NCBI RefSeq assembly: GCF_003003235.1
Contig: NZ_PVUE01000001.1
Span: 496,001-560,000, forward strand
Length of the DNA stretch: 64,000 nt
Origin: Antricoccus suffuscus
Lineage (GTDB): Bacteria; Actinomycetota; Actinomycetes; Mycobacteriales; Antricoccaceae
Reading direction: 5' to 3'
Below the pieces are notes generated by a model. That model was not told where the DNA came from, searched no databases, and worked only from the letters and a program-made list of their open reading frames with translations. Made by a program: the position numbers and the translations under genes. Below, piece by piece: positions 3,435 through 23,725 of the stretch; positions within the stretch are counted from its first letter, which is position 1; the number at the start of each line of letters is the position of its first letter.

Positions 3435-4303
3435 CTAGTGGTCGAGGCGCCGCCGGCGGCCAACCCATACGAGCCCGAGTCCCGATGCTAAGAGCAGCCC
3501 CGCGTAGGGCAGTAGCGACACGGTATCCGTGCCGGTGTTGGCGAGGCTGCGAGTAGCCGCAGCAGGATCCGTCGCGCCAGCGAGAGATGTAGTGCCGTCA
3601 CTATCGTGTACGAGATCGAAGTCCAATGACTGGTACGAAGCCGATTGTCCGTCGACATTGCAGACTGCCTCCACGTGATAATGCCCGGGTTCCGCGGGAT
3701 AGCCGGCCGTCCAGTGTCCGGTGGCATCCGTACCACTATCGGCCGGTCGTGTGAAGGTCTTCGGGAGTTGTGCCGTGACAGTTACTGTTCCGGGGGAACC
3801 GCCAATCGCGCAGCCATTGCCGCTAATTTGAACGAATTGTCCATTGGCATCGACGCCCAGTTTTACAGCAAGTGTGTTGTCGCCGGCGAGGAGGTCTGCC
3901 GCCGGGCCGGCTGGTTGCGAACTCGCCGGTACCGTCAGCATCGGGTACTCAATGGTGGTGTTGTAGATGTCGCAGACCGCGTGCGCGGTGTAATCGCCGC
4001 CGGAACGATCGAGTGTTGCGACGACATACCAATCCCCGCTTCCGGTGACGTTCACCGTGATCGTGGTGCCGGCCAGCACGCCGTTCTTGTCGGCGAATCC
4101 CACGATCACCTCCCCGGGTGTCCCGTCCGTGCCGATGCAACCGCCGCCAGCGATTCCCCATACGTCTGGTGTGCTCGCAGATGCTGGCGAGGCCCAAGGG
4201 GCGGAAGAGTAGTCGGCGCATCAGCGACTGCGGCTGGGATGGCGGACATCGTTAGCAGCGCTGCCGCCGTGATGATCTGACAGATACGTGAGCGAGCGGT
4301 CAT
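3435..4303 (-). pseudogene. LPxTG-like wall-anchored surface protein, frameshifted
   Basis: The 5' part (4303 down to about 4215) encodes a signal peptide, MTARSRICQIITAAALLTMS followed by AIPAAVADA. The mature protein continues in another frame: translated from the stop at 4221-4223 it reads DYSSAPWASPASASTPDVWG and runs open to 3435. The C-terminus is SLANTG (a LAxTG-type sortase motif), a hydrophobic helix and GRRRRLDH, a standard cell-wall sorting signal. Joining the frames needs loss of one base (or gain of two) near 4212-4222. No slippery heptamer is present there, so mutation or sequencing error is likelier than programmed frameshifting. Cys pairs suggest two beta-sandwich repeats. No sortase gene is in the window. 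Ligand unknown. Confidence 0.7.
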
Positions 4304-4685: not shown

Positions 4686-7094
4686 ATGCGTGCTGCCAAT
4701 GCACCCAGTCGTACATCGACCGTCTCTCGAGTACTTACGATCGCCGTCTCGGCATTAGTGCTCAGCGGTGCCCTGATCGGCATCCCCATCATCCGCGGTA
4801 TCGCCGAGGACCCGAAGCCGGTCTCGCCCGCTGTACAGGACATTGCTCTCGGTGCGCCCGCCGCACCGGCTGCAAAAGTCAAGGTGCTGGACTCCGGAGA
4901 CAATCCGGCACCTGCTCCTAGTGCTCCTTCCGCGCCGAGCGCGAGCGGTACCGCCGCGCCGACGCCGGAGGCAAGCCCACCCTCTAGCGAGTCCCAGTCA
5001 CCCACGTCGCCCGGTGCTGCGCCTGATTCGAGCGCGGCCCCAGCCGCTCCCAGCACGTCGCCTGCGCCTGGTTCTCCGAGCACAGCCCCGGCATCGCCAA
5101 GCACAGCGCCTGCGCCGTCGGCGCCGGGCGCTCCTGCGCCCCCCGCTACGGGCATGCCTGAAGGCAGCAAGACGATGGTGCTTGCCCAGCCGAACACTAA
5201 AGGCTTCTCGATGGCCGGTGTGACCTGGGCGGGCGACAACCCGACGACTGGCCTGGCTGTGCAAATTCGCGTGAAGGACACAGAAAAGGGCACGTGGTCC
5301 GGGTGGACCGATCTGAGCCTCAATCAAGACGGCGGCCCGAATCCCAACGCCGCGGGCGAACGGAATGGCACCGATCCGTACTGGTTCGGGACCTCGGACG
5401 GCATCGAAATATCGGTCACGATTGCGCCTGGCGTCAACATCACGGATGCCAAACTAACGCTGATTGATCCTAAGAAGATCTCGCAAGATGGAAATCCTGG
5501 CGCCCCGCAACCGGCAGCGCAGGCGCACGGTGCACCCGGCGATCAGCCACTTGTATATACGCGAGCTCAATGGGGCGCGGACGAGAGTAAGCGGACCTGG
5601 GATCCGCAATACGCCTCGACCATCAAAGCAGCGACCCTCCACCACAGCGCTGACGGGAACAACTACTCCGAGGCCGATGTGCCTGGCATCATGCGGTCGA
5701 TCTACCAGTACCAAGCCGTGACCCAAGGCTGGGGCGACATCGGCTACAACGTCGTCGTCGATAAATTCGGTCGTGCCTGGGAGGGTCGCTACGGCGGACT
5801 TGCCTCGACCGTGATCGGTGCACATGCTGGCGGGTTCAATACATACACGTTCGGTGTATCGATGCTTGGCAACTACGACCTGGTAGACGTTCCGGCGGCG
5901 ACCAAGGAGACGGTGGCACAGCTCATCGCGTGGAAGTTCGGGCTCTATGGCGTCAATCCCACTGGGACGACGCAACTTACACAGATGAATGGCGGTTTCA
6001 CTACGGCAAAGTTCAACGACGGACAGACAGTGACTCTGAACACGATATTCGGGCATAGGGACACTGGCAATACAGTCTGCCCAGGTCGCTACGGATACGC
6101 AGCGCTCCCCTCTATACGTGCCAGAGTCGCGCAGATTATGTCGTCGTATCCAGCGTTTGATCCTCAAGGTGCAATGTCGACCGGAGCGGGGACCAATGGC
6201 GAGATCGCGATCAATGGTTGGGCATTCGATGGGAGCGCTCCGTACGGTTCGGCCACGGTCATGTTCACCTTGAACGGGCAGGTTGCGGGATACGCTAGTG
6301 CGTCTGGTCCACGCCCAGAGCTTGGGAATTATGGAATTCCGGGCAACCATGGATTTACAACAACGCTGAAACCATCGTCGACCGGTAGTGACACCGTCTG
6401 CATGTTTATTTTCAACCTAGGTAATGGAAAAGATGTCTTGGCCCAATGCTCCAAGGTGGTAATTCCTAAGATCAATCCGCAGGCTGCCTTCACCGCGACG
6501 AAGGACGCAGCCGGATTGATTCACGCTGATGGCTGGGCGATTGATATGAGCGCACCGATGGAGCCAACTGTGGTGATGCTGACGCTGGACGGTGCTGCGG
6601 TCTCGTTCTCCTACGCCAATGGTCCCCGCCCAGAACTTGCGAACTACGGAATTCCAGGCAACCACGGACTGAACACCGTAGTACAGGGAAGTCGAACTTC
6701 GAGCAACCTGTTGTGTATGTACGTGTTCAACATCGGCGCCGGTAGCGACATTCTTGCCGGTTGCTTGACTCTGGCACCCCCCCCAATAGACCCACAGGGC
6801 GCGATGCAGGCTGGAGTCGATAAGAGCGGCAATATTGTGGTCGACGGCTGGGCGTTCGATCTTAGCGATCCAACAGCGGCGGCGACGGTCATGTTGACGT
6901 CAAACGGGCAGGCTTTTGCCTTCCTGTACGCCGATCAACCGAGGCCGGAGTTGGCCAATTATGGGGTGCCGGGCAATCACGGTTTCGTCTACGCGACGAA
7001 GCCGTCCAAGGGTTCGAGCCAGGTGTGTATGTACGTCTTTAATATCGGCGGGGGCGCTGATCGACTCGTCGGCTGTGCCACGGTCAAGGTCTAG
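4686..7094 (+). CDS. Secreted PGRP-type N-acetylmuramoyl-L-alanine amidase with three GW-type repeats
   Basis: An 802-residue exported wall enzyme. Order: N-terminal signal/anchor helix (about 15-36), Ala/Pro/Ser-rich linker (about 75-155), a beta-rich region with WxxW (about 160-270), and an amidase_2/PGRP domain (about 285-485) that cleaves the lactyl-Ala bond of peptidoglycan. ATLHHS (His319/320) and the GHRD / VCPG segment (His457 and the nearby Cys) are the zinc-site motifs. Three copies of a ~104-residue repeat follow (about 492, 596 and 701 onward), each with GWAxD, RPELxNYGIPGNHG and a final Cys pair (VCMxxFN...GC). The start ATG 4686 is preferred over an out-of-frame GTG at 4667. It is first in a three-gene operon, with 8 bp to the next gene. 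The repeats probably bind wall polymer (inference). Confidence 0.9.
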   Translation: MRAANAPSRTSTVSRVLTIAVSALVLSGALIGIPIIRGIAEDPKPVSPAVQDIALGAPAAPAAKVKVLDSGDNPAPAPSAPSAPSASGTAAPTPEASPPSSESQSPTSPGAAPDSSAAPAAPSTSPAPGSPSTAPASPSTAPAPSAPGAPAPPATGMPEGSKTMVLAQPNTKGFSMAGVTWAGDNPTTGLAVQIRVKDTEKGTWSGWTDLSLNQDGGPNPNAAGERNGTDPYWFGTSDGIEISVTIAPGVNITDAKLTLIDPKKISQDGNPGAPQPAAQAHGAPGDQPLVYTRAQWGADESKRTWDPQYASTIKAATLHHSADGNNYSEADVPGIMRSIYQYQAVTQGWGDIGYNVVVDKFGRAWEGRYGGLASTVIGAHAGGFNTYTFGVSMLGNYDLVDVPAATKETVAQLIAWKFGLYGVNPTGTTQLTQMNGGFTTAKFNDGQTVTLNTIFGHRDTGNTVCPGRYGYAALPSIRARVAQIMSSYPAFDPQGAMSTGAGTNGEIAINGWAFDGSAPYGSATVMFTLNGQVAGYASASGPRPELGNYGIPGNHGFTTTLKPSSTGSDTVCMFIFNLGNGKDVLAQCSKVVIPKINPQAAFTATKDAAGLIHADGWAIDMSAPMEPTVVMLTLDGAAVSFSYANGPRPELANYGIPGNHGLNTVVQGSRTSSNLLCMYVFNIGAGSDILAGCLTLAPPPIDPQGAMQAGVDKSGNIVVDGWAFDLSDPTAAATVMLTSNGQAFAFLYADQPRPELANYGVPGNHGFVYATKPSKGSSQVCMYVFNIGGGADRLVGCATVKV

Positions 7095-7102
7095 GTCGTT
7101 TG

Positions 7103-7780
7103 ATGCCTTCCGATGAGATGCAGTCCGATACCGATCCGAAAAAGGGAGTTCCAGGAGCCGGGCGGTACATTGTGATCGCTGCCAGCGTTGGGATCGTTGC
7201 TGTGCTTGCCGTGATCTTGGTCGCGGTGTTGGGATCGAACGGCAGGACCGACAACGCTGCCGATGGGGGGACCAAGGCCGCGTCGTCCGTCCCGCCGGAT
7301 AGCTCCTCGCCTTCAGCGCCGGACTCGACGCTGACCAGTACGTCGGCCGGGTCGCCGGGCACAGATAGTTCGTCCGCCACGAAGCCGTCGACATCGGTCT
7401 CGACGCCGCCTTCAGCCAGCAAAACTGCGCCGCCGCCGTCGGCTGGTGATGTGTCTGGGCAGCCTGCGCTCCCTCCGATCTCGGGGGCCGAAGTCGTTAT
7501 CACCAGCGTTACTTCGGCGCCCGGCACGCATTCTATCGATGTCTCAGCCGCAGTAAACGGGATCACTACGCTTGACGGCACCTGTACGGCCACTGCAACA
7601 ATGGGCAGCGAAAGCGCCAAGGCGTCGGTAAAGGCGCTCTTTGACGGTCGGGGCATGTCGTGCGGTTCCATCACCATTCCCATGCAAGGTAAACCCGGTG
7701 GCAAATGGAAGGTGACCGTCGTCTTCACTGCCGCCGTAGGTACCACGGAATCAGCCGCCGCGACTGTGGAGATCAAATAG
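7103..7780 (+). CDS. Membrane-anchored Ser/Pro/Thr-rich extracytoplasmic protein, unknown function
   Basis: 225 residues. A short cytosolic N-terminus (about 20 residues) is followed by one hydrophobic helix (YIVIAASVGIVAVLAVILVA), a Ser/Thr/Pro-rich stalk of about 80 residues, and a C-terminal ~95-residue domain of alternating beta strands with two Cys (TLDGTCTAT and GMSCGSITIP), which could form one disulphide. The architecture is that of a wall-spanning anchored protein. No enzyme motif is seen. It sits between two secreted wall enzymes: 8 bp after the amidase, and its TAG directly abuts the ATG of the next gene. A structural or adaptor role at the surface is inferred from that. ATG 7103 is preferred over TTG 7100. 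Confidence 0.75.
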   Translation: MPSDEMQSDTDPKKGVPGAGRYIVIAASVGIVAVLAVILVAVLGSNGRTDNAADGGTKAASSVPPDSSSPSAPDSTLTSTSAGSPGTDSSSATKPSTSVSTPPSASKTAPPPSAGDVSGQPALPPISGAEVVITSVTSAPGTHSIDVSAAVNGITTLDGTCTATATMGSESAKASVKALFDGRGMSCGSITIPMQGKPGGKWKVTVVFTAAVGTTESAAATVEIK

Positions 7781-9880
7781 ATGGCTGGTATGACGCAGGC
7801 GACCGCTACGACCGCTCGACGTGCCGTTCTAGTCGCGATTGTCATCGCGTTGATGGGTGCGTTCTTCACGTCTACTGCGCAGGAGGCCAGGGCAGTCTCG
7901 GCTGGCGATTGGAAGGCCGGGATGATCATCTCGGACGCGAAGTTCTTCGACGGCAATGCTATGTCGGCAAATGATGTGCAGGGATTTTTGAATTCGCAGG
8001 GAGCCAATTGCGTCGCCGGTGAGATGCCATGTCTCAAGAACTACTCGATGCCCACACCTCCGATCCCTGCGGAGCCCGGCCTGTGCAGTGCCGTCGGCGC
8101 GACCGGCGGACTGTCGGCTGCCCAGATCATCGACGTCGTTGCCCGCGCTTGCGGCATCAGCCAGAAGGTCATCCTGGTCACGCTCCAAAAGGAGTCCGCG
8201 CTGATCACCAAGACGCGACCAAGCGCGATCAACTATCGAAGTGCGACCGGTTTTGGTTGCCCGGACACCGCGCCGTGCGATGCACAGTACTACGGGTTCT
8301 TCAACCAAGTCTACCGAATGGCTCGACAGTTCAAGGTCTACACCAATAACCCCACCCGTTACGGCTATCAAAAAGGTCGCAACAACAACATCCAGTACAA
8401 CCCGAACGCCGGGTGCGGATCATCAAATGTCTACATCGAAAACCAGGCGACTGCAAACCTGTATATCTACACGCCGTACCAACCAAATACGGCGGCGCTC
8501 AACAACATGTACGGCACGGGCGACTCGTGTTCAGCATACGGCAACCGCAACTTCTGGCGGATGTATACCGACTGGTTCGGCTCGACCACAGATCAAAACG
8601 CGATTAACCCACAAGGCGATCTGCAGAGTGTGACCGTAAGCGGTGCATCTATCCTGACATTGACCGGTTGGGCGGTCGACATGAACATTCCGTTGGCCAG
8701 CGTTTCGGTGGCCATATCCGTGAATGGCAAGGAATTTGGGTCCGCATTAGCTACAGTTCCCAGACCAGAACTTGCCTCATACGGGATACCTGGTAATCAT
8801 GGCTTCTCGGTTCAACTCCAGGCGCCCTTCGATGGACCGAACGAAGTATGCGCCACAGCTAAAGACATCGGCGGAGGACAGGACACGTCGCTTGGGTGTA
8901 AATCCGTCACAGTGGCGTATCCAAAGATTAATCCGCAAGGCGCCTTGCAATCTTCAAGTCACGATTCGAATGGCAACATCACCGTAGGCGGTTGGGCCGT
9001 TGACATGAGCACGCCCGTTGACCCCGTAACACTGATGATCACGGTCAACGGTCAGGCGGTCGCATTTCTCTACGCCAACCAGCCCAAGCCCGAATTGGCC
9101 TACTACGGTATCCCAGGAGACCACGGCTTCTCAGTAACAGTCAAAGGAGTCGTTAACGGGCCCAATACCGTATGCGCCTACGCGTTTAACACACTCGGAG
9201 GCAGTGACATTCTAACTGGCTGCGCCACAGAGTCTGTCCAACTTCCGGGGAGTCCACAGGGATCGCTGGACTCGCTCACTGCTGACAATGCGGGAAACGT
9301 TGCTGTCAAAGGCTGGGTCTGGGACGTGAGTTCACCGACAGCGCCGGTGACTGTGATGCTGACCGTAGACGGTAATGTTTCCGCGTACTTCTATGCGTCG
9401 GATCCGAAACCTGAGCTGGCACATTACGGAATCCCGGGAGATCACGGTGCGAATTACACCCTCCGGCCCGGCACCCAAGGTGCAACACAGGTGTGTATGT
9501 ACGCGTTCAATATAGGGGCCGGCGGCGACATTCTTGTCGGATGTAAAAGCGTCTGGGTGGTGCCGCCTGGCAGCCCGATCGGTAGCGTGCAGTCAATCAC
9601 TACGGGCAGCGCGGGTTCAATCACGGTTCAGGGGTGGGCGTGGGACAGCGACGTGCCAATCAACCCGGTCGCACTCATGATCACGACGGATGGCATCCCG
9701 ACAGCCTTCTTGTATGCCGACCAATCTCTGCCGAATCTGACGGCGTACGGGATTCCTGGCCGACACGGATTTGCATATACGTTTGCGCCCAAGAAACTGG
9801 GGGCCAATCAAGTATGCGTCTACGCAGTCAACCAGGGCGCCGGCGCCGACGTGTTGCTCGGGTGTAAAACGACAAGCTAG
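7781..9880 (+). CDS. Secreted lysozyme-like (hemagglutinin-type) protein with four GW-type repeats
   Basis: 699 residues. Signal peptide about 1-38 (ends near AQEARA). Residues about 45-265 form a domain widespread in actinobacterial surface proteins, often labelled hemagglutinin: ISDAKFFDGNAMS, LVTLQKESALIT, GFGCPDTAPCDAQYYGFFNQ, and a C-terminal FWRMYTDWFGS. The Glu in QKES is the natural candidate for a muramidase catalytic acid, but that is inference. Four copies of the ~104-residue repeat seen in the upstream amidase follow (about 275, 383, 489 and 596 onward), each with GWAxD, PELxxYGIPGxHG and a conserved Cys pair. Its ATG directly follows the previous stop, so it is in the same operon. 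Its stop overlaps the convergent FkbM stop in a shared CTAG. Confidence 0.85.
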   Translation: MAGMTQATATTARRAVLVAIVIALMGAFFTSTAQEARAVSAGDWKAGMIISDAKFFDGNAMSANDVQGFLNSQGANCVAGEMPCLKNYSMPTPPIPAEPGLCSAVGATGGLSAAQIIDVVARACGISQKVILVTLQKESALITKTRPSAINYRSATGFGCPDTAPCDAQYYGFFNQVYRMARQFKVYTNNPTRYGYQKGRNNNIQYNPNAGCGSSNVYIENQATANLYIYTPYQPNTAALNNMYGTGDSCSAYGNRNFWRMYTDWFGSTTDQNAINPQGDLQSVTVSGASILTLTGWAVDMNIPLASVSVAISVNGKEFGSALATVPRPELASYGIPGNHGFSVQLQAPFDGPNEVCATAKDIGGGQDTSLGCKSVTVAYPKINPQGALQSSSHDSNGNITVGGWAVDMSTPVDPVTLMITVNGQAVAFLYANQPKPELAYYGIPGDHGFSVTVKGVVNGPNTVCAYAFNTLGGSDILTGCATESVQLPGSPQGSLDSLTADNAGNVAVKGWVWDVSSPTAPVTVMLTVDGNVSAYFYASDPKPELAHYGIPGDHGANYTLRPGTQGATQVCMYAFNIGAGGDILVGCKSVWVVPPGSPIGSVQSITTGSAGSITVQGWAWDSDVPINPVALMITTDGIPTAFLYADQSLPNLTAYGIPGRHGFAYTFAPKKLGANQVCVYAVNQGAGADVLLGCKTTS

Positions 9881-10857
9881 CGTGGTCTAGCTCGACGGAC
9901 GAGTTGGGTTCGTACACTCGCGAGCAGGGACCGCGCAGCGGTCAGCGGTCTCCCCGCTCCTATGTCGCTGATCGATCCGCCGTCGTCCGACCGCGGGGGC
10001 GGTTCGTCTGATTGCTCCGCCTGGTCGAGGCGATCGCTTGCGAGGTGATGCGCCATATAGTTCCCGTGGTATTCGGTGGCGGCCAGTACCTCGGGTCGTC
10101 GACCGAACTCGTTCTCGACAAATACGATATTGAACTGATTCTCATACTCGATGTCCCGGGCGATCGGGACGAATCCTTCGGCCAGCATGAACGCGATCAC
10201 ATCCAATGAGAGCCACTGATCGGCCCACATCATGCGTTCCTCAACCTCGATCTTGATCACCTGGCATGAGGACAGAAAGTGACGAGCGCCTTTCAGAACC
10301 TGCTTCGAGGCGCCCTCTACGTCAATCCAGATGCACGAACGCTCAACCTCGGGGAAGTAGCTATCCAGCGAGACTGCGTCGACGGTAAATTTCTCGTAGG
10401 TTGTCGACTCGTCCGATCGAACTAACAGCGAACTGTTTCCGGTGACCTGACGCATGTCCTGACCGTCGGCCTGCCTGCGGAGATGAAAAGTCTCCTCACC
10501 GGGCTGGTCGGTCACGGCGCAATTGAGGTATTCGACACCCGGGGCAGACTCTTTGAGCAGCCCACTGTAGGCAATGAAGTTGTACTTGTTCGCTTCGAAC
10601 GCTACGACACGGCATTGAGGCAGCATTCGCTTGATCTGGCGTGACGCCTCAGCTTTGTAGGCGCCGGCTTCGGCGAACACGGTCGGCTCCGACAGTTCGA
10701 CGAGTCTGAAGAACAAGTCGTCGAGATGTCGAGCCGAGTTCGAACGACCCTGATGCATGTTTGAGAATGTGGACACATGATCCCGCAATTGCTGGTCGTA
10801 CAGCCTCGCCAACATGCGGTTCAACTGCTGGGCATTGGTCAGGTCCACTTGCGGCAC
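9877..10857 (-). CDS. FkbM-family methyltransferase
   Basis: 326 residues. The core shows an SAM-binding beginning TVFAEAGAYKAEASRQIKRM, then CRVVAFEANKYNF, NCAVTDQPGEE, the FkbM-type acidic strand CIWIDVEGASKQVLKGA, and IKIEVEERMMW. FkbM proteins O-methylate sugars or polyketides; beside a polysaccharide exporter, methylation of a glycan is the natural reading (inference). Start chosen as GTG 10857 because GGAGGG lies 8 nt upstream (plus-strand 10866-10871); an open frame to 11016 adds an unconserved leader. It ends with its stop codon overlapping the convergent wall-protein stop (9877-9880). It is divergent from wzm. The C-terminal tail (about 285-326) is hydrophilic and unconserved. Confidence 0.8.
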   Translation of the reverse strand: MPQVDLTNAQQLNRMLARLYDQQLRDHVSTFSNMHQGRSNSARHLDDLFFRLVELSEPTVFAEAGAYKAEASRQIKRMLPQCRVVAFEANKYNFIAYSGLLKESAPGVEYLNCAVTDQPGEETFHLRRQADGQDMRQVTGNSSLLVRSDESTTYEKFTVDAVSLDSYFPEVERSCIWIDVEGASKQVLKGARHFLSSCQVIKIEVEERMMWADQWLSLDVIAFMLAEGFVPIARDIEYENQFNIVFVENEFGRRPEVLAATEYHGNYMAHHLASDRLDQAEQSDEPPPRSDDGGSISDIGAGRPLTAARSLLASVRTQLVRRARPR

Positions 10858-11163
10858 AGGAAGAGCCCTCCAGCTCGTATTTGGTGTACATGATGGCGGC
10901 GGCCCCGGGAAGCTGCGCACGTTCGCTTGTCCGTCAACTATGCCATGCGCTAGCCGCCGACATCGTGAGCGATCCCTCGTAACCGCGGCGTGCGCACATC
11001 CGGCGCCCGTAGCCACTACAATCGACCGAGCGATCTAACGTAGCGATGCCGATCTGGGCCCGTCCATGTCGACCACTAGGCGACCGTTGTGTGTAGGTGA
11101 AGTCGAACCGTTTTGGCGCATCGGCGTAAGTAGAGTAGTTCAGAGCAGAGACAAGGTAGGCGA

Positions 11164-11982
11164 GTGGCAACACGTAATCCGATAAAGGAGATATGGCATT
11201 ACAGAGGGCTAATCGGCAATTTCGCCAGTCGCGAAATCAAGGGCAAGTACCGGGGGAGCTTACTGGGGTCTGTTTGGTCCTTGCTTAATCCACTCTCCAC
11301 CCTCGCGATTTACAGCATTGTCTTTGGCTTCTTCTTGAGGTTTCCCAACAGGGTCGCGGGAAACGGCACTCTATCTAGTTTTCCGGTGTATCTATTTACT
11401 GCCCTCGTGCTCTGGAATTTTTTTAATGCCCTAGTTACGGGCAGCATTGGTGCGCTAGTTGGTGCCGGACCGCTATTGCGAAAGATCTACTTCCCTCCCT
11501 TTACGGCAGTTTTTGGTTCAATGCTTGCTGTCCTAAACCAGCTAATGATCGAAATCGGCATTCTAGTCGTCGTATTTTTGATTGCCTGGAACATCAGTTG
11601 GACGATTCTGCTCCTACCGATACTCCTCGCACTTTTCGCGGCGTTTGGTCTCGGCGTTGGAATGTTTTTTGCGATGCTGAATGCGCGCTTTCGCGATGTC
11701 AATTATATCATCACAGTACTGCTAAACCTCCTGTTTTATAGTGCGCCCATTATTTACCCTATTGAGCTAGTTCAGGCCAAGTACGGCGAGTATCCTTGGT
11801 TGAAACTATATGAATATAATCCCCTGACTGTATTCATAGAATCATTTCGGAACATTCTGTGGGACCTCAAATTTCCCGGATGGCCCAGCATGGCGTATAT
11901 GGTGATCGTGAGCCTGCTCGTCCTCGCAGGTGGATGGTTCTTCTTCCAACGACGCGCTCACGACGTTAGCGAGGAACTTTAA
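11164..11982 (+). CDS. wzm: ABC-2 polysaccharide exporter permease
   Basis: 272 residues with about six hydrophobic segments. The N-terminus reads YRGLIGNFASREIKGKYRGS, then LLGSVWSLLNPL, typical of the TagG/Wzm branch of ABC-2 permeases that export undecaprenol-linked O-antigen or teichoic acid-type glycans. GTG start at 11164, with AAGGTAGG just upstream. One base separates its TAA from the wzt ATG, so the two are coupled. The coding region is clearly less GC-rich than the flanks (11401-11460 has 30 of 60 G/C), suggesting a transferred segment. Family function is well established; the exported polymer is unknown. Confidence 0.93.
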   Translation: MATRNPIKEIWHYRGLIGNFASREIKGKYRGSLLGSVWSLLNPLSTLAIYSIVFGFFLRFPNRVAGNGTLSSFPVYLFTALVLWNFFNALVTGSIGALVGAGPLLRKIYFPPFTAVFGSMLAVLNQLMIEIGILVVVFLIAWNISWTILLLPILLALFAAFGLGVGMFFAMLNARFRDVNYIITVLLNLLFYSAPIIYPIELVQAKYGEYPWLKLYEYNPLTVFIESFRNILWDLKFPGWPSMAYMVIVSLLVLAGGWFFFQRRAHDVSEEL

Positions 11983-11983
11983 G

Positions 11984-13279
11984 ATGTCTGGTCTATTTGC
12001 GACGAATCAAACGTCGGAGGATATAGATCGCATTAGCGCGGCCCGTGAGTCGGCGATCGAGATCCGCGATGTGTCGAAGCGATTTAAACTCTTCGCGGAC
12101 CGACGCACCAATCTGAAAGAAATGGTAACGGATCGTCGCCGGAAAGATCGGAGTGATGAGTTTTGGGCGTTACGTGACATATCGCTCGACATACCCAGGG
12201 GTAAGACGTTCGGTCTGATCGGGCACAACGGGTCCGGCAAGTCAACTCTCCTGAAGCTGATTGCCGGCATCCATCGTCCGACCAAAGGGAGCGTGGTTGC
12301 GCACGGACGGGTGTCAGCCATGCTCGAGCTCGGTGCAGGTTTTCATCCGGAGTTGTCCGGGCGTGAAAATGTGTATCTTAACGGGTCGATCCTCGGAATG
12401 ACTCGCAAGCAGATCGACCGCGCGATGGAGCGGATAGTCGACTTCAGTGGCTTGAGCGAGTTTATAGACACGCCCGTGAAGATCTATTCGTCGGGGATGT
12501 ACGTGCGTCTTGGTTTTGCGATCGCGGTCAACCTTGATCCGGAAATCCTCATTGTGGACGAGGTCATCGCTGTCGGCGATGAGGAGTTCCAGCGCAAATG
12601 TTTTGATCATTTGTATGATTTGCGCAGACGCGGGACGACCATAGTCATGGTCTCCCATAGCCTCGGCCTGATGGCGGAGATCTGCGACGAGGTCGCCTGG
12701 ATTGATAGCGGTAGGCTGCGAGGAGTGGGGCCCGCGAGAAAATTGACGGACGAATACCTCGCTTCGGTTAACATAAGGGAAGCCGAGAGCGCCCAAGGCA
12801 TAAGCCATGAGTCGCCAGCGTATGGTTCTACGGAAGTCGACCCGAGTCGTCATGGATCTGGGGAGGTCCAGGTGACTGATATTGAGTACCTTGACGCTGA
12901 AGGTAGTTCGGTGGCGTTTCTGACCAGCGGTCAATCGTGTACGCTGCGGGTTCACTACTCTGCGTCGGCAGAAATTTCGAGCGTGGCATTAGGCCTTAGT
13001 TTCGATCATGAGTCAGGCGCACATATCGCTGATACGAATAGCGGTTACGACAACGGATCTTCCTCACTGCAGGCTGGCCGCGGCCACTTTGACTATCGAA
13101 TGGATAGACTCCCATTGCTTCCAGGAGCCTTTACGCTATCCACTCTGTTGTCGGACAAAGGTCATACGTACGATTCTCGAGAGCGAGCCTTCATAATGAA
13201 GGTCCGGGCCGCAGAGTCGAATCTTGGTTCGGGTTTGGTTCGTTTTGAGGGTCTGTGGACCGGACCCGGATCCTCTTAG
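11984..13279 (+). CDS. wzt: Polysaccharide exporter ATP-binding subunit with C-terminal carbohydrate-binding domain
   Basis: 431 residues. The ABC domain (about 25-245) shows Walker A GHNGSGKST, signature YSSGMYVRLGFA (the Wzt/TagH form), Walker B ILIVDEVIAVGD and the switch His in VMVSHS. Residues about 270-431 form a Wzt_C-like beta-sandwich, which in characterised systems binds the terminally modified glycan and couples chain completion to export. Start is ATG 11984, directly after the wzm stop; an upstream in-frame ATG inside wzm (11930) is rejected. With Wzm it should export a lipid-linked glycan made by the surrounding transferases. The adjacent FkbM methyltransferase could provide a cap, as in capped O-antigens; this is inference. 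Confidence 0.93.
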   Translation: MSGLFATNQTSEDIDRISAARESAIEIRDVSKRFKLFADRRTNLKEMVTDRRRKDRSDEFWALRDISLDIPRGKTFGLIGHNGSGKSTLLKLIAGIHRPTKGSVVAHGRVSAMLELGAGFHPELSGRENVYLNGSILGMTRKQIDRAMERIVDFSGLSEFIDTPVKIYSSGMYVRLGFAIAVNLDPEILIVDEVIAVGDEEFQRKCFDHLYDLRRRGTTIVMVSHSLGLMAEICDEVAWIDSGRLRGVGPARKLTDEYLASVNIREAESAQGISHESPAYGSTEVDPSRHGSGEVQVTDIEYLDAEGSSVAFLTSGQSCTLRVHYSASAEISSVALGLSFDHESGAHIADTNSGYDNGSSSLQAGRGHFDYRMDRLPLLPGAFTLSTLLSDKGHTYDSRERAFIMKVRAAESNLGSGLVRFEGLWTGPGSS

Positions 13280-13312
13280 CCCGCGGTGGGACTATCTGCG
13301 CCCGATCGAATC

Positions 13313-14464
13313 CTAGCGCCAGCTTTTTGGCGCGTTGAGTATTCGCCTCGCGCGTGCTCGCAGTGACTGGGCATTGATCAAGTTCTGTATATGATCGATT
13401 CTGCCGTTCAGAATCCCAAACTGGGCGATGAGACGATTCGTCGCGCTGATGTTGGCAGAGTTGATGTTCTCGATAGCTTTTTCAATCCGCGCTAACTCTG
13501 CATGCAAATCCTGGCCGAGGATGTGGAGTTTTTGATCGGTATGGCCGGCCAGGTCCGATAACGCGTTGATCAAGCTATTTGTGTGGTCCGTTCGTTCGTG
13601 TGCACCCTGGTTGGTTCGGTTAACAAGTTCGGCGACAAAGAGATAATGCCCCAGACCGTTGGCTTGCGCGGTGCCTCTTATATACCGGTCTCGTATCGCT
13701 ATGTCGTAATGGGAGTGATCGGCGCTGGCGACAACGACACTGTTGCCCAGGTCGCCCTCGGCGTCGCGACGGTGGTGCCATTTGGCAAGTGGTTGTCCGT
13801 CAAGAAATCCCACCGTGTGGCGCTGGAGAACTCGTAGGTTGAAATCCCAATCCGCGAGAACTGGAAGCGAGTTGTCGTAGAAGCCCACCTCGTCGTGAAG
13901 GGAGCGGCGGTAGAGGAACGAGATTGGCGGCGCATAGTTGCGCACTAGCATGTCCAGTAGGGTAATCTCGTGCTTGTCGGCGGCGAGGATCTCGCTTGAC
14001 TCCGTGACGACGCTTCCCGCTTCTATCCGTTCGTAGATTACTTCCGTGCGTGCCATGACGCCCGCGTCGTGTGAGCCCTCGAGATGAGCTACGGTCTTCT
14101 CGAGAAACTCTGGGTGCCAGCTGTCGTCGTCGTCGTGAATGGAAATGTATTTCGATGAAGATCCGCGTACTCCGTCGTTCATGGCGCCTTCACGGCCGCT
14201 AGACACGACGTTATGTATCACACGAATTCGTCCTTTGGAGCGCTCTAGATGGCGTCCAACGACTTCATTCACTGGTCCTGGGTCGCCCGCATCGTTCACG
14301 ATGACGATGCTGAAATCCTGGTAAGTCTGGGCAAGCACGCTTTCAATTGCCCGGTCTAGTAAGATTGGGCGATTCTTGGTTCGGGTGACAACGGCGACGG
14401 TTGCGTCGACCTGGTCATTCGACACGCGACTTAGCTTCTCTCGCCAGTATCGATCCAGTGGCAC
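13313..14464 (-). CDS. GT2 glycosyltransferase with C-terminal coiled coil
   Basis: 383 residues. GT-A fold at the N-terminus: VAVVTRTKNRPILLDRAIES, VNDAGDPGP, and the metal-binding DxD region in YISIHDDDDSWHPEF (about 108-123). This is a family-2 inverting transferase using a nucleotide sugar. Residues about 290-375 carry heptad-like hydrophobics (LHILGQDLHAELARIEKAIE) consistent with a coiled coil, reminiscent of chain-length or complex-forming transferases. GTG start at 14464, overlapping the end of the epimerase gene by 34 bp, so the pair is co-transcribed. Convergent with wzt. Sugar specificity cannot be read. Confidence 0.87.
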   Translation of the reverse strand: MPLDRYWREKLSRVSNDQVDATVAVVTRTKNRPILLDRAIESVLAQTYQDFSIVIVNDAGDPGPVNEVVGRHLERSKGRIRVIHNVVSSGREGAMNDGVRGSSSKYISIHDDDDSWHPEFLEKTVAHLEGSHDAGVMARTEVIYERIEAGSVVTESSEILAADKHEITLLDMLVRNYAPPISFLYRRSLHDEVGFYDNSLPVLADWDFNLRVLQRHTVGFLDGQPLAKWHHRRDAEGDLGNSVVVASADHSHYDIAIRDRYIRGTAQANGLGHYLFVAELVNRTNQGAHERTDHTNSLINALSDLAGHTDQKLHILGQDLHAELARIEKAIENINSANISATNRLIAQFGILNGRIDHIQNLINAQSLRARARRILNAPKSWR

Positions 14465-15501: not shown

Positions 15502-15883
15502 GTCTCCAGTTCGTATTAGCTTGCTAGTGCAATTGCGACGTCGTCCACTATAGGGGTTCCGACTTGACGAGTGCGGGACGCCGATCGCCTGCAGTTGGTT
15601 GTCGGCCGGGTTCGTGGACGCCGAGCCGCTGCCGCTCGAGGCGGCGCTAACACGGAGGAAACCACACTTGGCTTCGGCGATTGAGCTCGAGCACGGCGCT
15701 TCGGTCCTGCTCGCCGAGAACCGGTAATCTGACACGCTGCAGCCATACTGTCTCTAGACAATGCACCGATTACGCTTGCGAGGCGCAGCGAATGGATGGA
15801 TAAGCCTTGGATCACGCGCGGTGAAGATCACGCGCTGTCGCGTCGACATTGGTCACGCTAGTAAGAAGGGCCGATGTAACGGC

Positions 15884-17977
15884 ATGGTGAAACGTTCGTC
15901 AACGGTGTCCGGAGCCGATGCCCTAACGACGCATAACAAGCGTGCGCGGAAGGACATCCAAGCGCTTCGCGCTGTAGCCGTCGTTGCGGTCGTGCTCTAC
16001 CACCTCTGGCCGAGCAGGCTTACCGGCGGATTCGTTGGGGTCGACGTCTTCTTTGTCGTTTCTGGATTCCTCATCACGTCGCACCTCGTCGCGAAACCAC
16101 CTGCGCGGATTGTTGACCTTGCGACCTTCTGGGGTCGGCGAATTCGACGATTGCTGGCTCCGGCATTCGTGGTGATCGTCGTAACGCTGGTCCTTGTGAG
16201 GGTATTTCTTCCTAGCACTCTCTGGCGCGGGAATGCGCACGACGCGACAGCATCTATGCTGTACTACCAGAACTGGCATTTGATTGGTGATGCGGTCGAC
16301 TATCTCGGCGGAGAGACTGCGCGTTCACCGTTCCAGCACTTCTGGTCGTTGTCAGTCGAAGAGCAGTACTACATCGCCTGGCCGGTGTTAATCGGCCTCG
16401 CGATCGTGTTCTGCAGGCGCCGCGGCTCGACACGGCAAATCGTCGGTGTACTGGCAGTCGGCTTCGTCGTGGCGTCTTTTGTTTACGGACTCACCGCCAG
16501 TTATACCAGCCCGGCCGTCGCGTACTTCTCGACATTCGCGCGCGCTTGGGAACTTGGCATCGGGAGTGTTCTTGCGTGTGTCGCCCCCATTGCATCGAAG
16601 TGGTTGCGGCCACACGAGCGAGGGCGAAGTTTCGCCCTATGGGTAAGTCTTGGCGCTCTAGCCGCTTCGTTCGTATTAATAGACTCCGACGACGTCTTTC
16701 CAGGTTGGGTAGCGACGGTTCCGACAGTCGCTACTGCGCTAATAATCTTGGTCGAGGCGCCCGAGAAGGCGCGGCTGACGGGGCTATTCTCAGCTCGGCC
16801 GGTGCAGTTCATAGGCGACGTCTCATACGCGCTCTATCTTTGGCATTGGCCACTAATTGTCGTCACGCCGTTTGTGTTGTCACATGGGCCGTCCTGGTGG
16901 GAAAAATGCGGGGTGATTGCCGTCTCCGTGGCTCTCGCTTGGGTGAGCACTACTTTCATAGAGGCACCGCTGCGGCGCAATCGACTGCTTGAGCGGCGGA
17001 CGCGGTACAGTTTCGTGCTCGCGGCCGGGCTGTCGTTAGTGGTCGTTGCGGCGTCGGTGATCGTCGTGCTCCAGACAGACCAGATGGAGCGTAAGACTGC
17101 GACGGATGTAGTCGCGCAGATAGCGAAATCCCCGGATTGTTTTGGGGCGGCGGCGATGGACCCAGGGAATAAGTGTCCGGCGCACCAACCCCTTGTCACC
17201 TCACCGGTGTACGCAAAATCGGATATGTCACCGGTCATAACGGACTGCCTCAACTGGCCACCCTTTGAATCGTTCCAGTCTTGTACGTATGGGACTCAGT
17301 CACGTCCGATTAAGCGGATTGCTCTCTTCGGCAATTCACACGCTGGGCACTGGCTTCCAGCGTTTGAGGCGCTGGCAACCGCACGAGGCTGGCAAATACA
17401 GACGTTCGTCATCGGTGTTTGCCAACCTGTCGACGATGTAGTGAAGTTCGCGGATGGAATGGCAGGCATGTCAGCTGGGGAGCTTGCCAACAAGTGTAAG
17501 AAGGTCGTCGACAACGCATTAAATGAAATCGAGAAGGGTCATTTTGATCTAGTCGTAATGTCCGATCTCGATCGCAAGCCGCAGGCCTCTGTGGAGGATT
17601 ACGCTAAAACTATGGCTGCCCTTGCGACACCGTCGCGAAGGCTGATGGTAATCCGAGACACGCCCGCACCGTTAGACCCAAAGAACGAGCCTCCTGATTG
17701 CGTCGCGACCAATCCGGACAACTACGACGATGCATGCGCCGGTACTAGATCGGCGTGGATCGGCTACGACCCGCTGGCCGACGCCGCAAAAAAGCTGGAC
17801 TCTCCAAATGTCACGACAGTCGATCTGAACCAGTATCTCTGCGGTCCGGTCCGATGCCCGGCGGTCATCGGCGGGGTCATCGTTTACGCCGATTACAACC
17901 ACATGTCGACAACGTTCGCGAGGACGCTCGCGCCCTATCTACTTCCGTATGTCGAGCCACTCTTGATTCGCAAATGA
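15884..17977 (+). CDS. Acyltransferase-3 / SGNH fusion (OafA-like O-acetyltransferase)
   Basis: 697 residues. The N-terminal acyltransferase-3 membrane domain (about 25-400, ten or so helices) begins with DIQALRAVAVVAVVLYHLWP, then GGFVGVDVFFVVSGFLI and SLSVEEQYYIAWPVL, the classic OafA/YrhL motifs that carry acyl groups across the membrane. The C-terminal extracytoplasmic SGNH-like domain (about 450-697) has IALFGNSHAGHWLPAFEAL and a terminal DYNHMS (His) motif. Such proteins O-acetylate glycans outside the membrane. Start is ATG 15884 with AAGAAGGG upstream; the open frame from 15761 has an unconserved leader. A hairpin at 18062-18080 follows the stop. Confidence 0.92.
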   Translation: MVKRSSTVSGADALTTHNKRARKDIQALRAVAVVAVVLYHLWPSRLTGGFVGVDVFFVVSGFLITSHLVAKPPARIVDLATFWGRRIRRLLAPAFVVIVVTLVLVRVFLPSTLWRGNAHDATASMLYYQNWHLIGDAVDYLGGETARSPFQHFWSLSVEEQYYIAWPVLIGLAIVFCRRRGSTRQIVGVLAVGFVVASFVYGLTASYTSPAVAYFSTFARAWELGIGSVLACVAPIASKWLRPHERGRSFALWVSLGALAASFVLIDSDDVFPGWVATVPTVATALIILVEAPEKARLTGLFSARPVQFIGDVSYALYLWHWPLIVVTPFVLSHGPSWWEKCGVIAVSVALAWVSTTFIEAPLRRNRLLERRTRYSFVLAAGLSLVVVAASVIVVLQTDQMERKTATDVVAQIAKSPDCFGAAAMDPGNKCPAHQPLVTSPVYAKSDMSPVITDCLNWPPFESFQSCTYGTQSRPIKRIALFGNSHAGHWLPAFEALATARGWQIQTFVIGVCQPVDDVVKFADGMAGMSAGELANKCKKVVDNALNEIEKGHFDLVVMSDLDRKPQASVEDYAKTMAALATPSRRLMVIRDTPAPLDPKNEPPDCVATNPDNYDDACAGTRSAWIGYDPLADAAKKLDSPNVTTVDLNQYLCGPVRCPAVIGGVIVYADYNHMSTTFARTLAPYLLPYVEPLLIRK

Positions 17978-18044
17978 CAATCGAAGGACGATCCTGGTCG
18001 GCTGGCGTCATGTCTTTTGCGTGTTGGGCTCCTGGCTTTGCAGA

Positions 18045-19346
18045 TCAGGCCCTATCCGTTGACCCGGCGCTTCGCCGGGTTTGATTCGGCTGAGAGTCGC
18101 CAGAGATAGCACTGGGAGCCTGACCGACCGACGTGGTCAGCTGATTATCGATATCGCGTAGTTTCTGCGCATACCGAGACGACGAGAAGTTCGGATTTAC
18201 CAACGACCGCTTGATCTTGTCATTGAGCGGGCCAGCCTTTTTCTGTGCCGCCGCGAGCAATGAGGGTGTCCAGCTCTTAAGACTCATCGCGCGCTTTTCG
18301 ATAAGGTGCCAACTCGCGAACGCAACTAGATGGATGGCTGCGACAATGCAAATGTGGTAAACCCACCAGCCGGCCTTCTGGAGGCCGAAGTATGCTGAAA
18401 ACTGCATTATTGGCCACGCAAATATGTATATACCGTACGAAAGATCCGCGTGTACATCCCAGCGTGTTAGTGGAATTCGAATCGCGCACCACATCAGTAC
18501 GTACACAAAACCAAACTGCCCATAAAGCAGCCATCCCGCACCCGAGAAATAGGTAAACGCCGCGAGGGCCAGGGCTGCAACGGCGATGCGATCGTCGATA
18601 CGGATCACATCGTCAAATAGCGCAAATACCATACCTACCGCAAACGGCATTAGAACCATAATGTTCTTATAGTCGTTAAGGAATGGCGCGAACTTGGTGA
18701 AATCGCCGAAGCCGGCCCATGTCATCGTGTTAAGTACAACCATGAAGCCCGCAAAAGTGGCCACTAGCCAGCGAAATTTCAGAATACCAAGAAGGCCGAA
18801 GATCCCAATAATGGCGTAACCCTTGAACTCATAAATAAGGGTCCAAGCGGAACCATTCCAGTTGAACCCGCCCGCGTGACCCAACGGAATAGTCGAACCC
18901 ATTCCGGCTATATTCGGCTGATTCATGCGCAGAAACATGTTATCGGTAAAATAACGGAACGGTGAATCGACGGTAGGCGACCAGTAGTTTGTGGCTGAAC
19001 CATAGGTGTGTATATATGCGATCGGGCCGAGCACGAATGCCGTTACAAGCAGGGCCGCCCAGAACGCAGGAAAAATGCGTAGTATGCGCCTCCAGAAGTA
19101 GCGAAATATCGTCGATGACCCTTGGCGACTCTTGGTGATAAGAAAGCCGCTCAGAAAGAAGAATCCACAAACGGCCACGCCGCCCAACGACTGCTCGGTC
19201 GTGAACTGGAGCCCGAGGTCATGTCCTCCGTAAAAGCCTGCCAACGGACCTGCGTGTGAGAAAATCACGGCGAACGCCATCAGCCATCGAAGGAAACCGA
19301 TGCTATTGGATTTCGGGTTAAACGCCTGGCGAATAGTTAAAGGCAT
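18045..19346 (-). CDS. Acyltransferase-3 membrane protein
   Basis: 433 residues, about ten hydrophobic helices. Motifs: IGFLRWLMAFAVIFSHAGPL (with the conserved His), GGVAVCGFFFLSGFLITKS and YFWRRILRIFPAFW. It lacks a C-terminal SGNH domain, unlike the neighbour at 15884-17977, and ends in a hydrophilic tail of about 60 residues. Likely O-acylates a surface glycan precursor or lipid-linked intermediate. It lies 17 bp downstream of the RgpF-like gene on the same strand, so probably one operon. AT-rich relative to the genome (18421-18480 has 26 of 60 G/C). Confidence 0.9.
   Translation of the reverse strand: MPLTIRQAFNPKSNSIGFLRWLMAFAVIFSHAGPLAGFYGGHDLGLQFTTEQSLGGVAVCGFFFLSGFLITKSRQGSSTIFRYFWRRILRIFPAFWAALLVTAFVLGPIAYIHTYGSATNYWSPTVDSPFRYFTDNMFLRMNQPNIAGMGSTIPLGHAGGFNWNGSAWTLIYEFKGYAIIGIFGLLGILKFRWLVATFAGFMVVLNTMTWAGFGDFTKFAPFLNDYKNIMVLMPFAVGMVFALFDDVIRIDDRIAVAALALAAFTYFSGAGWLLYGQFGFVYVLMWCAIRIPLTRWDVHADLSYGIYIFAWPIMQFSAYFGLQKAGWWVYHICIVAAIHLVAFASWHLIEKRAMSLKSWTPSLLAAAQKKAGPLNDKIKRSLVNPNFSSSRYAQKLRDIDNQLTTSVGQAPSAISGDSQPNQTRRSAGSTDRA
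18062..18080 (+). terminator. Hairpin terminator after the OafA-like gene
   Basis: ACCCGGCG (18062-18069), three-base loop, CGCCGGGT (18073-18080): a perfect 8-bp stem followed by TTGATT. It lies 84 bp after the plus-strand stop and inside the 3' end of the convergent minus-strand gene. Confidence 0.6.
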
Positions 19347-19363
19347 AATGGCTTGCGCTATCT

Positions 19364-21229
19364 CTATAGTCTGTCTTGGGCCTGGTGTGGAGACCTTCCC
19401 GCTCTGTACGCCCGACGAGTTAGGCGGTATAGCGGTCGGAGACCGTGTCCCACTCTAGGAAATCGCCTATCGACGGCGTCTTTTACTGCCGACAGCAATG
19501 GGTGTCCAGCCTGAATCCGATCTAAGTAATCCATCTGATCCTGCGTAAAATGGGGGAGCCGCGACGCAACCCGCTGCAGCTTATATTCCAGGAATGCGTA
19601 GTTAATGCTGGCCCAGTCTCGATTTATGATCGACCGCAAATGGTATCCCTCATTCATTGCGGCATATCCGAGCAGCCGTTCCTGGACGTGAGCTAACCCG
19701 CCATCGTTATGACCTGGCTCCGCCGGATAGTCATCCCAGGTCCAATTGTGCTCCGCTAGAGTTCGGAGCGAATCCGGGCGAAACCAAAACATCGTCCCAT
19801 ATGGGGCAACAGGTGTGGAGCGATCGAACTTGGTCGTGATTCCCAACTTCTCAGCGATGTCCTCAGCCTGTTCGCGGTTGGTGAACCAGGAGTGCCCAAG
19901 GGTTGGGTAACCAACGTTCACTATTGGCGGAAATGCCATGCCGAGCGTGGGCTGGTCCTCAAAAAGCCTTAGTATGCTCGCGACGTAGCCTGGCGTATAG
20001 AGCAAATTATCAAACATGTGTTCTTTAAACAATACGGCCGTGTTGTAGTCGTTCTGAGGAGATTTTTTCGAGTGTACTCGACATATAAGATCGTATTTGT
20101 CGGACAGTAGGACATCTTTGCAAGTGATAAGGAGTGCGCTCATATCTCGCCCGCGGTTTTGCTCCATGACGCGGACTTCGACGTTTGCCGCGTCATACGG
20201 CTTGAGGTCTCGCTCGATATGCCGCTTCTTGTCCTCGGATACAGTCGTCACAATTAGGTCGTAGGGAACGGGGATGTTTTTAACGTAGGACATGGTCTCA
20301 TCGACCATATCTTCGTAGTAGATGTGTGCGAGCACAGCTATGCGCGGCTGAGGTTCCGGTCGGTAGCCAGAATCGAACTCTGGAAGGACCTCGAGCAGAG
20401 ATAGATTCGTATAGAGGGTTCGGGGTTCTGCTGAGCGAACCACATTGCGCCAGATCAGATCGGTCGGATAGTCGGTTGCCTCGATGGCTTCCATAACTCG
20501 TCGGCCAAGGATTGCGTTGCGCTCTAAGTAGGTAGGTTCATGGAAGAAGAGCCGACGTTTGACTATCGGGCAACGGTCTTTTAGTAAAAGATTGGCGTTT
20601 TCGAATATAGGGTGTGTCGACGGATAGTTCTCTGGGGGGAATGTCACGCTATACGAAAATCCGCGCTCCGAGAAGTGCTTCGTGAATCGTGATTCGTGTC
20701 TCAGTATCGAATCTTCATAGGAGTGAATCATAGGCATGGAATCCCAATAGTCCTGAAATTCAAGCGAGGTAAACATCCGCTTACGGACAGCGATCCAATG
20801 GGACTGGATGTGCATTGGCAGTTCATCGTTCGCGCCTGGGAAGGGGTTCGGATTCATCGACTTATGCGCCGTTATCCCCCAGAAGTCTACGTCCTGTCGA
20901 TTCATGGTCTCGAACGTTTCAGAGAACGGAAACACCGGTCCAAAAAATGTGTAATTCATGAGGACAAGTTCGTCATATTTCGCGAGACGATCTCGGCCAA
21001 ACGCTTCCATTGCTTGCTTGTATCCCCAGACGTCGAACCCGACGTTTTCCCGTACGTATACGGTGTCGGCAACCGACTCGAGTTTCGAACGCCCGTCCGT
21101 TGTCAGAGCCGAATTGGAGACCACGAAGATGGTTTCGGCGTGCTCGCGCAGTCTCGCTAACTTATGGACGATATAGTCGTCCACAATTCCGTGCGGATCG
21201 AAAAATAGGTAGAATATTACGCGGCGCAC
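19364..21229 (-). CDS. RgpF-like rhamnan synthesis protein (glycosyltransferase)
   Basis: 621 residues. The N-terminus has FYLFFDPHGIVDDYIVHKL, then VYVRENVGFDVWGYKQAMEA and LVLMNYTFFGPVFPF, matching rhamnan synthesis F proteins. A second half repeats the theme (IAVLAHIYYEDMVDETMSYV, EVRVMEQNRGRDMSALLI, YDLICRVHSKKSPQNDY). In streptococci RgpF participates in rhamnose-glucose wall polysaccharide synthesis; related proteins are found in many capsule/O-antigen loci. The start is GTG 21229 with AAGGGA 6 nt upstream. The downstream acyltransferase gene follows after 17 bp. AT-rich codons suggest transfer with the locus. Exact linkage unknown. Confidence 0.88.
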   Translation of the reverse strand: MRRVIFYLFFDPHGIVDDYIVHKLARLREHAETIFVVSNSALTTDGRSKLESVADTVYVRENVGFDVWGYKQAMEAFGRDRLAKYDELVLMNYTFFGPVFPFSETFETMNRQDVDFWGITAHKSMNPNPFPGANDELPMHIQSHWIAVRKRMFTSLEFQDYWDSMPMIHSYEDSILRHESRFTKHFSERGFSYSVTFPPENYPSTHPIFENANLLLKDRCPIVKRRLFFHEPTYLERNAILGRRVMEAIEATDYPTDLIWRNVVRSAEPRTLYTNLSLLEVLPEFDSGYRPEPQPRIAVLAHIYYEDMVDETMSYVKNIPVPYDLIVTTVSEDKKRHIERDLKPYDAANVEVRVMEQNRGRDMSALLITCKDVLLSDKYDLICRVHSKKSPQNDYNTAVLFKEHMFDNLLYTPGYVASILRLFEDQPTLGMAFPPIVNVGYPTLGHSWFTNREQAEDIAEKLGITTKFDRSTPVAPYGTMFWFRPDSLRTLAEHNWTWDDYPAEPGHNDGGLAHVQERLLGYAAMNEGYHLRSIINRDWASINYAFLEYKLQRVASRLPHFTQDQMDYLDRIQAGHPLLSAVKDAVDRRFPRVGHGLRPLYRLTRRAYRAGRSPHQAQDRL

Positions 21230-21645
21230 CCGTGTCCCTTCAGATGTGATTGTTTGGTTGTGAAGCGTCTAGATGCTCGGGGATTGCAGCAATGGACTCT
21301 CTAGCCCCGACAGCTGCCGGGTGTGGCAACCTAATCGCGACGTTGCTACGATACAGGCACTCTTCGTCAAGTTCGCGGATCTCGCGGATCGACGTTCAGG
21401 CGCTTGCCTGTTGAGTGTCTGATTCCTCACAGATGGCACCGTGGCCGGCTGCCCGGTATGCCCCAATACCGAGAGGTTTTGCCGGAACCCGCCGGCGCAA
21501 CGGTCGGGTGGGCTTGCCGCGGGTGTAAGTTCTCGTTGTTCTTGCGCCGGCGGTTACTCTAATGCGCGGCACAGCTGTCAAGCGCTCGTATTGGCGCATG
21601 TCAGGGGTCGTTTTATCGAGCCGAAGTGAGGACTCTGAGTTTCAG
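21230..21645. other. Intergenic region between divergent glycan genes
   Basis: About 415 bp (330 bp if the downstream gene starts at 21562). No RNA or convincing small gene seen. It contains a 12-bp perfect inverted repeat, CCGCCGGCGCAA at 21489-21500 and TTGCGCCGGCGG at 21542-21553, with 41 nt between, a possible regulator pair or long hairpin. Confidence 0.4.
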
Positions 21646-23679: not shown

Positions 23680-23725
23680 CTCCGGTTAACGATTTGACCC
23701 GGTGGTCGGTGCGTTTAGGACGAGG

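Follow-up and report, generated by a model that had tools for sequence, protein, structure and literature searches.

In a 64,000-nucleotide stretch of the Antricoccus suffuscus genome (contig NZ_PVUE01000001.1, positions 496,001 to 560,000; hereafter the window), two neighbouring predicted wall enzymes, an N-acetylmuramoyl-L-alanine amidase (protein A) and a partner with an uncatalogued catalytic-type domain, LLD (protein B), share one C-terminal repeat, here called GWxxD. As the initial annotation stated, there are seven tandem copies of ~100-108 residues, three in protein A and four in protein B. In relatives the paired enzymes carry either this repeat or the LGFP repeat (PF08310), and in such pairs the module type tracks the class of the polysaccharide exporter encoded nearby. 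From this indirect evidence of co-occurrence, the ligand of the repeat is probably a surface polymer common to both enzymes and produced by the neighbouring genes, much as that annotation had proposed.

The exporter survey covered 67 LLD-encoding genomes of families f1, to which the window belongs, and f16, with the f44 and f35 loci excluded. The GWxxD/LGFP comparisons use a hand-compiled table of 66 of them, leaving out G001, which has SH3-like repeats. In a tree, the export ATPases encoded beside the enzymes form two deeply separate groups, with 9/9 GWxxD loci of f1 and f16 on one side and 31/31 f16 LGFP loci on the other. The GWxxD-type ATPases extend through a Wzt_C region (one of the nine is truncated where the stretch examined stops), and the LGFP-type ATPases end ~0-30 residues past the ATPase part. 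Genome-wide, the curated galactan exporter NF050108 (at least 400 bits) is found in 0/12 GWxxD and 46/54 LGFP genomes, and Wzt_C (PF14524) exceeds its cut-off in 12/12 and 14/54, respectively. In the 12 GWxxD genomes the distance between Wzt_C and the enzyme is 4.6-13.4 kb, and the galactan exporter is on the enzyme's contig in 43 of the 46 LGFP genomes, within 10 kb in 31. For the window, the C-terminal domain of Wzt scores 73.3 bits against PF14524 (76.5 in the genome search; cut-off 30.4), and the exporter stays below the NF050108 cut-off of 400, at 198.8 bits (200.7 in the genome search). Three genera contain both module types and agree in direction: the galactan exporter is present in 0/4 GWxxD versus 8/11 LGFP genomes of g27, 0/4 versus 3/3 of g157 and 0/1 versus 1/3 of g152. 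The genus-stratified exact P value, a product over these genera, is 0.00055, uncorrected for kinship within genera. As a descriptive count without background control, a relative of Wzm or RgpF is encoded within the stretch examined at 25 of 51 LLD loci.

The association extends to the two enzymes of each pair, defined as an Amidase_2 gene within 1.5 kb of an LLD gene on the same strand. Such pairs were found at 34 loci (L166, with its amidase 7.4 kb away, on the other strand and lacking the C-terminal part, was excluded), and the two enzymes agree in module type in 34/34, eight times GWxxD and 26 times LGFP. All eight GWxxD genomes with a pair have Wzt_C without the galactan exporter, and all 26 LGFP genomes with a pair have the galactan exporter. 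The shared module type within pairs is a strong association that reflects few independent events.

LLD itself occurs in 14 of 61 genomes (60 relatives plus that of the window), in 28 of 394 at class level and in 64 of 96 within family f16, and the part that follows it varies among GWxxD, LGFP, CW_binding_2, SH3-like, FG-GAP-like and NlpC/P60-like modules, or is missing. SH3-like, FG-GAP, NlpC and CW_binding_2 modules were classed by motif and LGFP by a home-made profile, with Pfam confirmation limited to LGFP in L078 and CW_binding_2 in L117; the broader repeat model omitted the repeats of L027 and those shorter than 90 residues. Since other modules follow the same catalytic domain, GWxxD occupies the place of known wall-binding modules, and on this domain it is interchangeable with LGFP and CW_binding_2. 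Several f44 genomes (L115, L116, L118-L124) encode an additional LLD protein that nearly lacks a C-terminal part.

We propose that the repeat is a small secreted immunoglobulin (Ig)/fibronectin type III (FnIII)-like module that would serve as an address tag for a wall polymer. Arrays of two to five C-terminal copies would bind a secondary wall polymer and keep the peptidoglycan hydrolase on the wall, and proteins A and B would share the tag because both would act on the same wall region. The explanation as a whole seems to us probable. Its first part, a wall-binding role for the repeat, is likely, judged indirectly from the C-terminal position, the substitution by known binders and the match with exporters. 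The ligand would most likely be the polysaccharide exported by the adjacent Wzm/Wzt_C system (11164-13279), an identification that we consider reasonably probable. The nearby RgpF, glycosyltransferases, acyltransferases and FkbM methyltransferase point to a decorated, perhaps rhamnose-containing polymer as the product of this locus. More tentatively, and with somewhat less than even confidence, GWxxD would read polymers exported by Wzt_C systems and LGFP would read galactan, so that a change of exporter class would switch both tags of the pair; we hold the link between actinobacterial autolysins and enterococcal phage lysins described below with the same caution. If the rule holds, the wall-binding specificity of autolysins and lysins would be predictable from neighbouring genes, and the ligand question becomes directly testable, as GWxxD against a Wzt_C polymer and LGFP against galactan. 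No test of galactan as the LGFP ligand was found among the papers listed in one literature search.

Several observations weigh against this explanation. The catalytic-domain trees need only two to three changes of module type and contain one supported independent contrast, so a sign test on module changes has no power; correlated evolution of the two enzymes' modules, analysed through independent tree pairs, was set aside as underpowered for the same single contrast. The two f44 loci, one of each module type, both fall on the GWxxD side of the ATPase tree, the LGFP one (L110) on a very long branch. Eight LGFP genomes (G457, G462, G482, G486, G500, G504, G528 and G531) have Wzt_C and no galactan exporter, with enzyme and Wzt_C on one contig in five, and thus LGFP is not strictly tied to galactan; an adjacent amidase is absent from the stretches examined in all eight. 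RgpF occurs in 3/67 genomes, all of family f1, and in 0/9 GWxxD genomes of f16. A rhamnan made by RgpF is therefore not the ligand in general, and we rejected it as a rule. Finally, copies of the repeat turn up in genomes that lack the enzyme pair and on exported proteins of other kinds. The fold matches are generic for small β-sandwiches, with no family excluded through absence from them, and Ig-like folds are common and show no function.

Some of these points also bear on an alternative in which the ligand is peptidoglycan or the wall surface generally, unrelated to the polymer of the adjacent locus, and enzyme, module and exporter stay together only by travelling as one cassette. Such joint travel would be consistent with the clustering of GWxxD and LGFP on the enzyme trees, with the few changes that these trees need and with the repeats in genomes that lack the pair, and the deep difference between the two classes of exporter ATPase is what replacement of a whole locus would give. 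However, the catalytic domains show no deep split by module type such as the exporters show, and the three genera with both states agree in direction, with the reservation on kinship given above. We consider this alternative rather unlikely.

A role without glycan binding is less probable still. Tandem Ig/FnIII-like domains often act as stalks, and the repeats could serve passively as spacers, carrying the catalytic domain through the wall, or as modules for protein-protein contact. The predicted fold, on which our main explanation also draws, would suit a stalk: a confident AlphaFold model of repeat B3 (9242-9574; mean predicted local distance difference test score, pLDDT, 91.5) is a seven-strand sandwich with one short helix, predicting an Ig/FnIII-like module, and its best VIA-align fold matches are FnIII and PKD modules (Z 8-9.5). 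The repeats are nevertheless C-terminal, in the place of known wall-binding modules, and their core (G-W, PxLxxYGxPGxHG) is kept through ~50-60% divergence, so we regard passive spacers or contact modules as improbable.

The seven copies follow a common pattern with exceptions. The motifs quoted in the initial annotation are shared broadly, but A2, A3, B1, B3 and B4 each depart from at least one: PQG is PQA in A2 and PIG in B4, B3 has GWVWD, A3 has YGVPG, B4 has PNLxxYGIPGRHG, and B1 has VCATAKD and lacks VCxYxFN. Invariant in 7/7 repeats are P1, G19-W20, D23, P27, G39, A47, P52, L54, Y57-G58, P60-G61, H63-G64, C80, G89, D91 and C96. The core NYGIPGNHG had been called unusually uniform. Pairwise identity among the repeats is only 36-57% in protein and 43-60% in DNA, so this impression rests on a short core, which is the family consensus: YGIPGNHGF also occurs in one metagenome-assembled genome of Clostridiaceae, where the repeat follows a CHAP domain, and in one of Saccharibacteria (L050, L051). 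A profile built from the seven repeats recovers them from the 4.68-Mb genome (E 5e-43 to 1e-49), with no eighth copy in that search. The two arrays are not contiguous, with a 226-residue open reading frame (7100-7780) and the catalytic domain of protein B between them.

The uniform core had also been read as a sign of gene conversion or recent expansion, for which the codons give no indication. Shared residues use identical codons in 133/424 cases within proteins and in 181/520 between them, versus 153 and 195 expected from random synonymous choice; the conserved core has 75/240 (88.6 expected), and no 20-codon window in any repeat pair is above chance (P=0.32). The comparison of divergence suggested with that claim gives the same picture, in that A and B repeats of the window differ as much as same-position repeats of two genera, with mean identities, averaged by hand from the identity matrix, of 0.44 (12 pairs) and 0.45 (seven pairs). 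G004, from another genus of the same family, has an orthologous pair whose arrays, of three and four repeats, keep the same order. In the repeat tree B1 pairs with its counterpart b1 (support 0.92), B4 with b4 (0.94) and B2 with b2, and the A-side repeats pair less cleanly with their positions. On these grounds the arrays, or at any rate the one in protein B, are older than the split of the genera. Recent conversion or expansion that keeps the repeats of the two genes uniform was thus rejected on codon sharing at chance level and positional orthology, and with ancient, erased conversion as its remaining form we think it highly improbable, despite 62 bp at 82% between A2 and B3 and a relative, G019, whose LGFP-type genes are nearly identical in part. 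In that contrasting case (L078, G019:C2:340001-360000), the LGFP regions of amidase and partner (7253-8872 and 10274-11893) share 1,279 bp at 99.8%, as recent conversion or duplication between neighbours would leave them. Similarly high protein identity was seen in L160, L183 and L162. Across the 34 loci, the amidase C-terminus is closest to that of its own partner in only 13, so homogenization within genomes is not general.

The repeat was found in 21 of the 61 genomes and in at least 18 of 396 sampled over the phylum, the window's own included, the latter a lower bound since the profile was narrow. The family occurs in many kinds of open reading frames, and the view that it resembles GW-type repeats decorating many exported actinobacterial proteins stands in this respect; membership of Pfam GW, or of any Pfam family, does not. 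No Pfam or NCBIfam model exceeds its cut-off over the repeat, and the Listeria-type GW model gives no match in either protein at E up to 1. Neither LGFP (PF08310) nor CW_binding_2 (PF04122) matches in the proteins of the window; the same library finds ten copies of LGFP in L078, and CW_binding_2 was found in L117. A scan of genome contigs with a narrow pattern returned two loci only, viral scans gave little, a plasmid search gave three Curtobacterium records with partial matches, and a phage search with protein B found none. The G004 genome has 30 copies, versus seven in that of the window, on contigs C3, C6, C14, C28, C31, C41, C64 and C106; three are on a subtilase-like exported protein (L037, judged by eye).

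The closest match in a profile search of the PDB is the C-terminal part of the amidase EfAmi1 of an Enterococcus faecium prophage (chain 8C4D), which alone is weak (E 0.027). When the repeat was aligned with the EfAmi1-type C-terminal domain by hhalign, the score was 39.8 (P 1.2e-6, probability 90.7). Among the controls, 200 column-shuffled profiles reached 18.6 at most, the reversed profile scored 22.0 and an unrelated domain 10.9. This profile-profile comparison supports kinship of the two. The similarity spans 69 columns, including G-W, (R)PD, YG and G; neither has a Pfam model, and the EfAmi1 domain follows Amidase_2, as the repeats do in protein A. It differs in being single or double rather than in tandem arrays, in lacking a conserved Cys pair and in its ~22% identity. 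Relatives of this domain were found in 57 phage records, phages 9181 and 9184 being among the matches, and the four complete phage endolysins scanned are all Amidase_2 proteins. In the EfAmi1 report the crystal comprises the amidase domain only, and the C-terminal domain is unclassified, probably carbohydrate binding, and modelled by AlphaFold as an eight-stranded barrel with three helices (PMC10167349), compared with the sandwich of the GWxxD model, both folds being predicted. In a survey of enterococcal lysins the C-terminal domain of 9184/9181-type endolysins is classed as an unknown wall-binding domain, and the accessible text names such domains by alignment only, with no actinobacterial link (PMC10630273). 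If the kinship is real, the GWxxD family would connect autolysins of actinobacteria with this unclassified domain, which binds the wall in lysins of enterococcal phages.

That hydrolases bear wall-binding repeats in tandem at the C-terminus is known; new here, as far as this analysis could judge, are a module family without a Pfam or NCBIfam model, its kinship to the phage amidase domain and the relation of module to exporter. No published description of the GWxxD repeat or of this relation was found in a literature search limited in library and wording. With the GW domain of Listeria surface proteins the window repeat has in common the Gly-Trp name and a wall-anchoring role, proposed for the window, and it is set apart by its Ig/FnIII-like model and the missing Pfam GW match. 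LGFP takes the same position as tandem C-terminal repeats on the same amidase and partner in relatives, but has ~50 residues with an LGFP core and goes with the galactan exporter in 26/26 paired loci; it has been proposed as a wall-anchoring repeat (PMC3314691). The closest experimental precedent for polymer-directed tagging is EpaU, an E. faecalis autolysin, a hydrolase encoded in the rhamnan-containing EPA locus, whose C-terminal domain binds the decorations of that polymer (PMC13343894). Like the window pair, EpaU is a wall hydrolase inside a rhamnan-polysaccharide locus with C-terminal targeting, proposed for the window, to that polymer; it differs as a glycoside hydrolase family 25 (GH25) enzyme with C-terminal repeats described as OB-like, a comparison made by description alone (PMC13343894).

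The features of the locus are listed in Table 1. Protein A matches PF01510 with 45 bits (E 1.7e-11; gathering cut-off 26), and contains LHHSADG and GHRDTGNTVCPG, which we take to hold the likely His and Cys metal ligands of the predicted amidase. Residues 161-270 have no Pfam match, and this domain (GVTW...W..W..L) recurs in paired amidases of another family. Protein B has no Pfam, NCBIfam or PHROG match over cut-off, and its LLD gave none to lysozyme-like families in Pfam, NCBIfam, PHROG or the PDB, with an invariant QKE present; an AlphaFold model of LLD from a two-row alignment was too poor for use (pLDDT 36). The label 'lysozyme-like' in the initial annotation finds no support in these searches. 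We take protein B to be a second, probably glycan-cutting enzyme. The genes for protein A, the 226-residue protein and protein B are all on the plus strand and only 5 and 0 bp apart, and are therefore probably one operon. In G001, G003 and G004 the middle gene has relatives close to the LLD gene despite a differing gene order.

Table 1. Features of the hydrolase pair and the adjacent glycan locus (window coordinates).
Feature	Position	Strand	Remarks
Protein A, 802 aa	4686..7094	+	Amidase_2 protein; N-terminal hydrophobic segment, Pro/Ala/Ser-rich linker, conserved N-terminal domain, Amidase_2, three C-terminal repeats
Domain N-terminal of amidase, residues 161-270	5166..5495	+	blast matches in other paired amidases compared
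Amidase_2 (PGRP-type) catalytic domain, residues 311-468	5616..6089	+	PF01510; PHROG endolysin families
Repeat A1	6162..6476	+	
Repeat A2	6477..6791	+	
Repeat A3	6792..7091	+	
Middle gene, 226 aa	7100..7780	+	hydrophobic N-terminal segment; starts 5 bp past protein A, abuts protein B
Protein B, 699 aa	7781..9880	+	signal-like N-terminus, uncatalogued catalytic-type domain, four C-terminal repeats
Catalytic-type domain of protein B (LLD)	7895..8590	+	invariant Q-K-E and several invariant Cys over 14 genomes
Repeat B1	8609..8932	+	most divergent
Repeat B2	8933..9253	+	
Repeat B3	9254..9574	+	
Repeat B4	9575..9877	+	
FkbM-type methyltransferase	9877..11016	-	PF05050, E 3.3e-18
Wzm-type polysaccharide export permease	11164..11982	+	PF01061, E 1e-14
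Wzt-type export ATPase with C-terminal Wzt_C	11930..13279	+	PF00005; PF14524, E 2.6e-20; start codon uncertain
Family 2 glycosyltransferase	13313..14464	-	PF00535
Acyltransferase-3 fused to SGNH domain	15761..17977	+	PF01757, PF19040
Acyltransferase-3	18045..19346	-	PF01757
RgpF, rhamnan synthesis protein F	19364..21229	-	PF05045, E 4.4e-177

Upstream of the pair, an exported protein (3435-4109) ends in LANTG, a hydrophobic stretch and RRRR, resembling a sortase substrate, with a Pfam anchor model reaching E 0.15 only. The G+C content falls from ~65% at the left end of the window to 53-58% over the glycan locus (10001-24000), a drop often seen in exchanged polysaccharide clusters.

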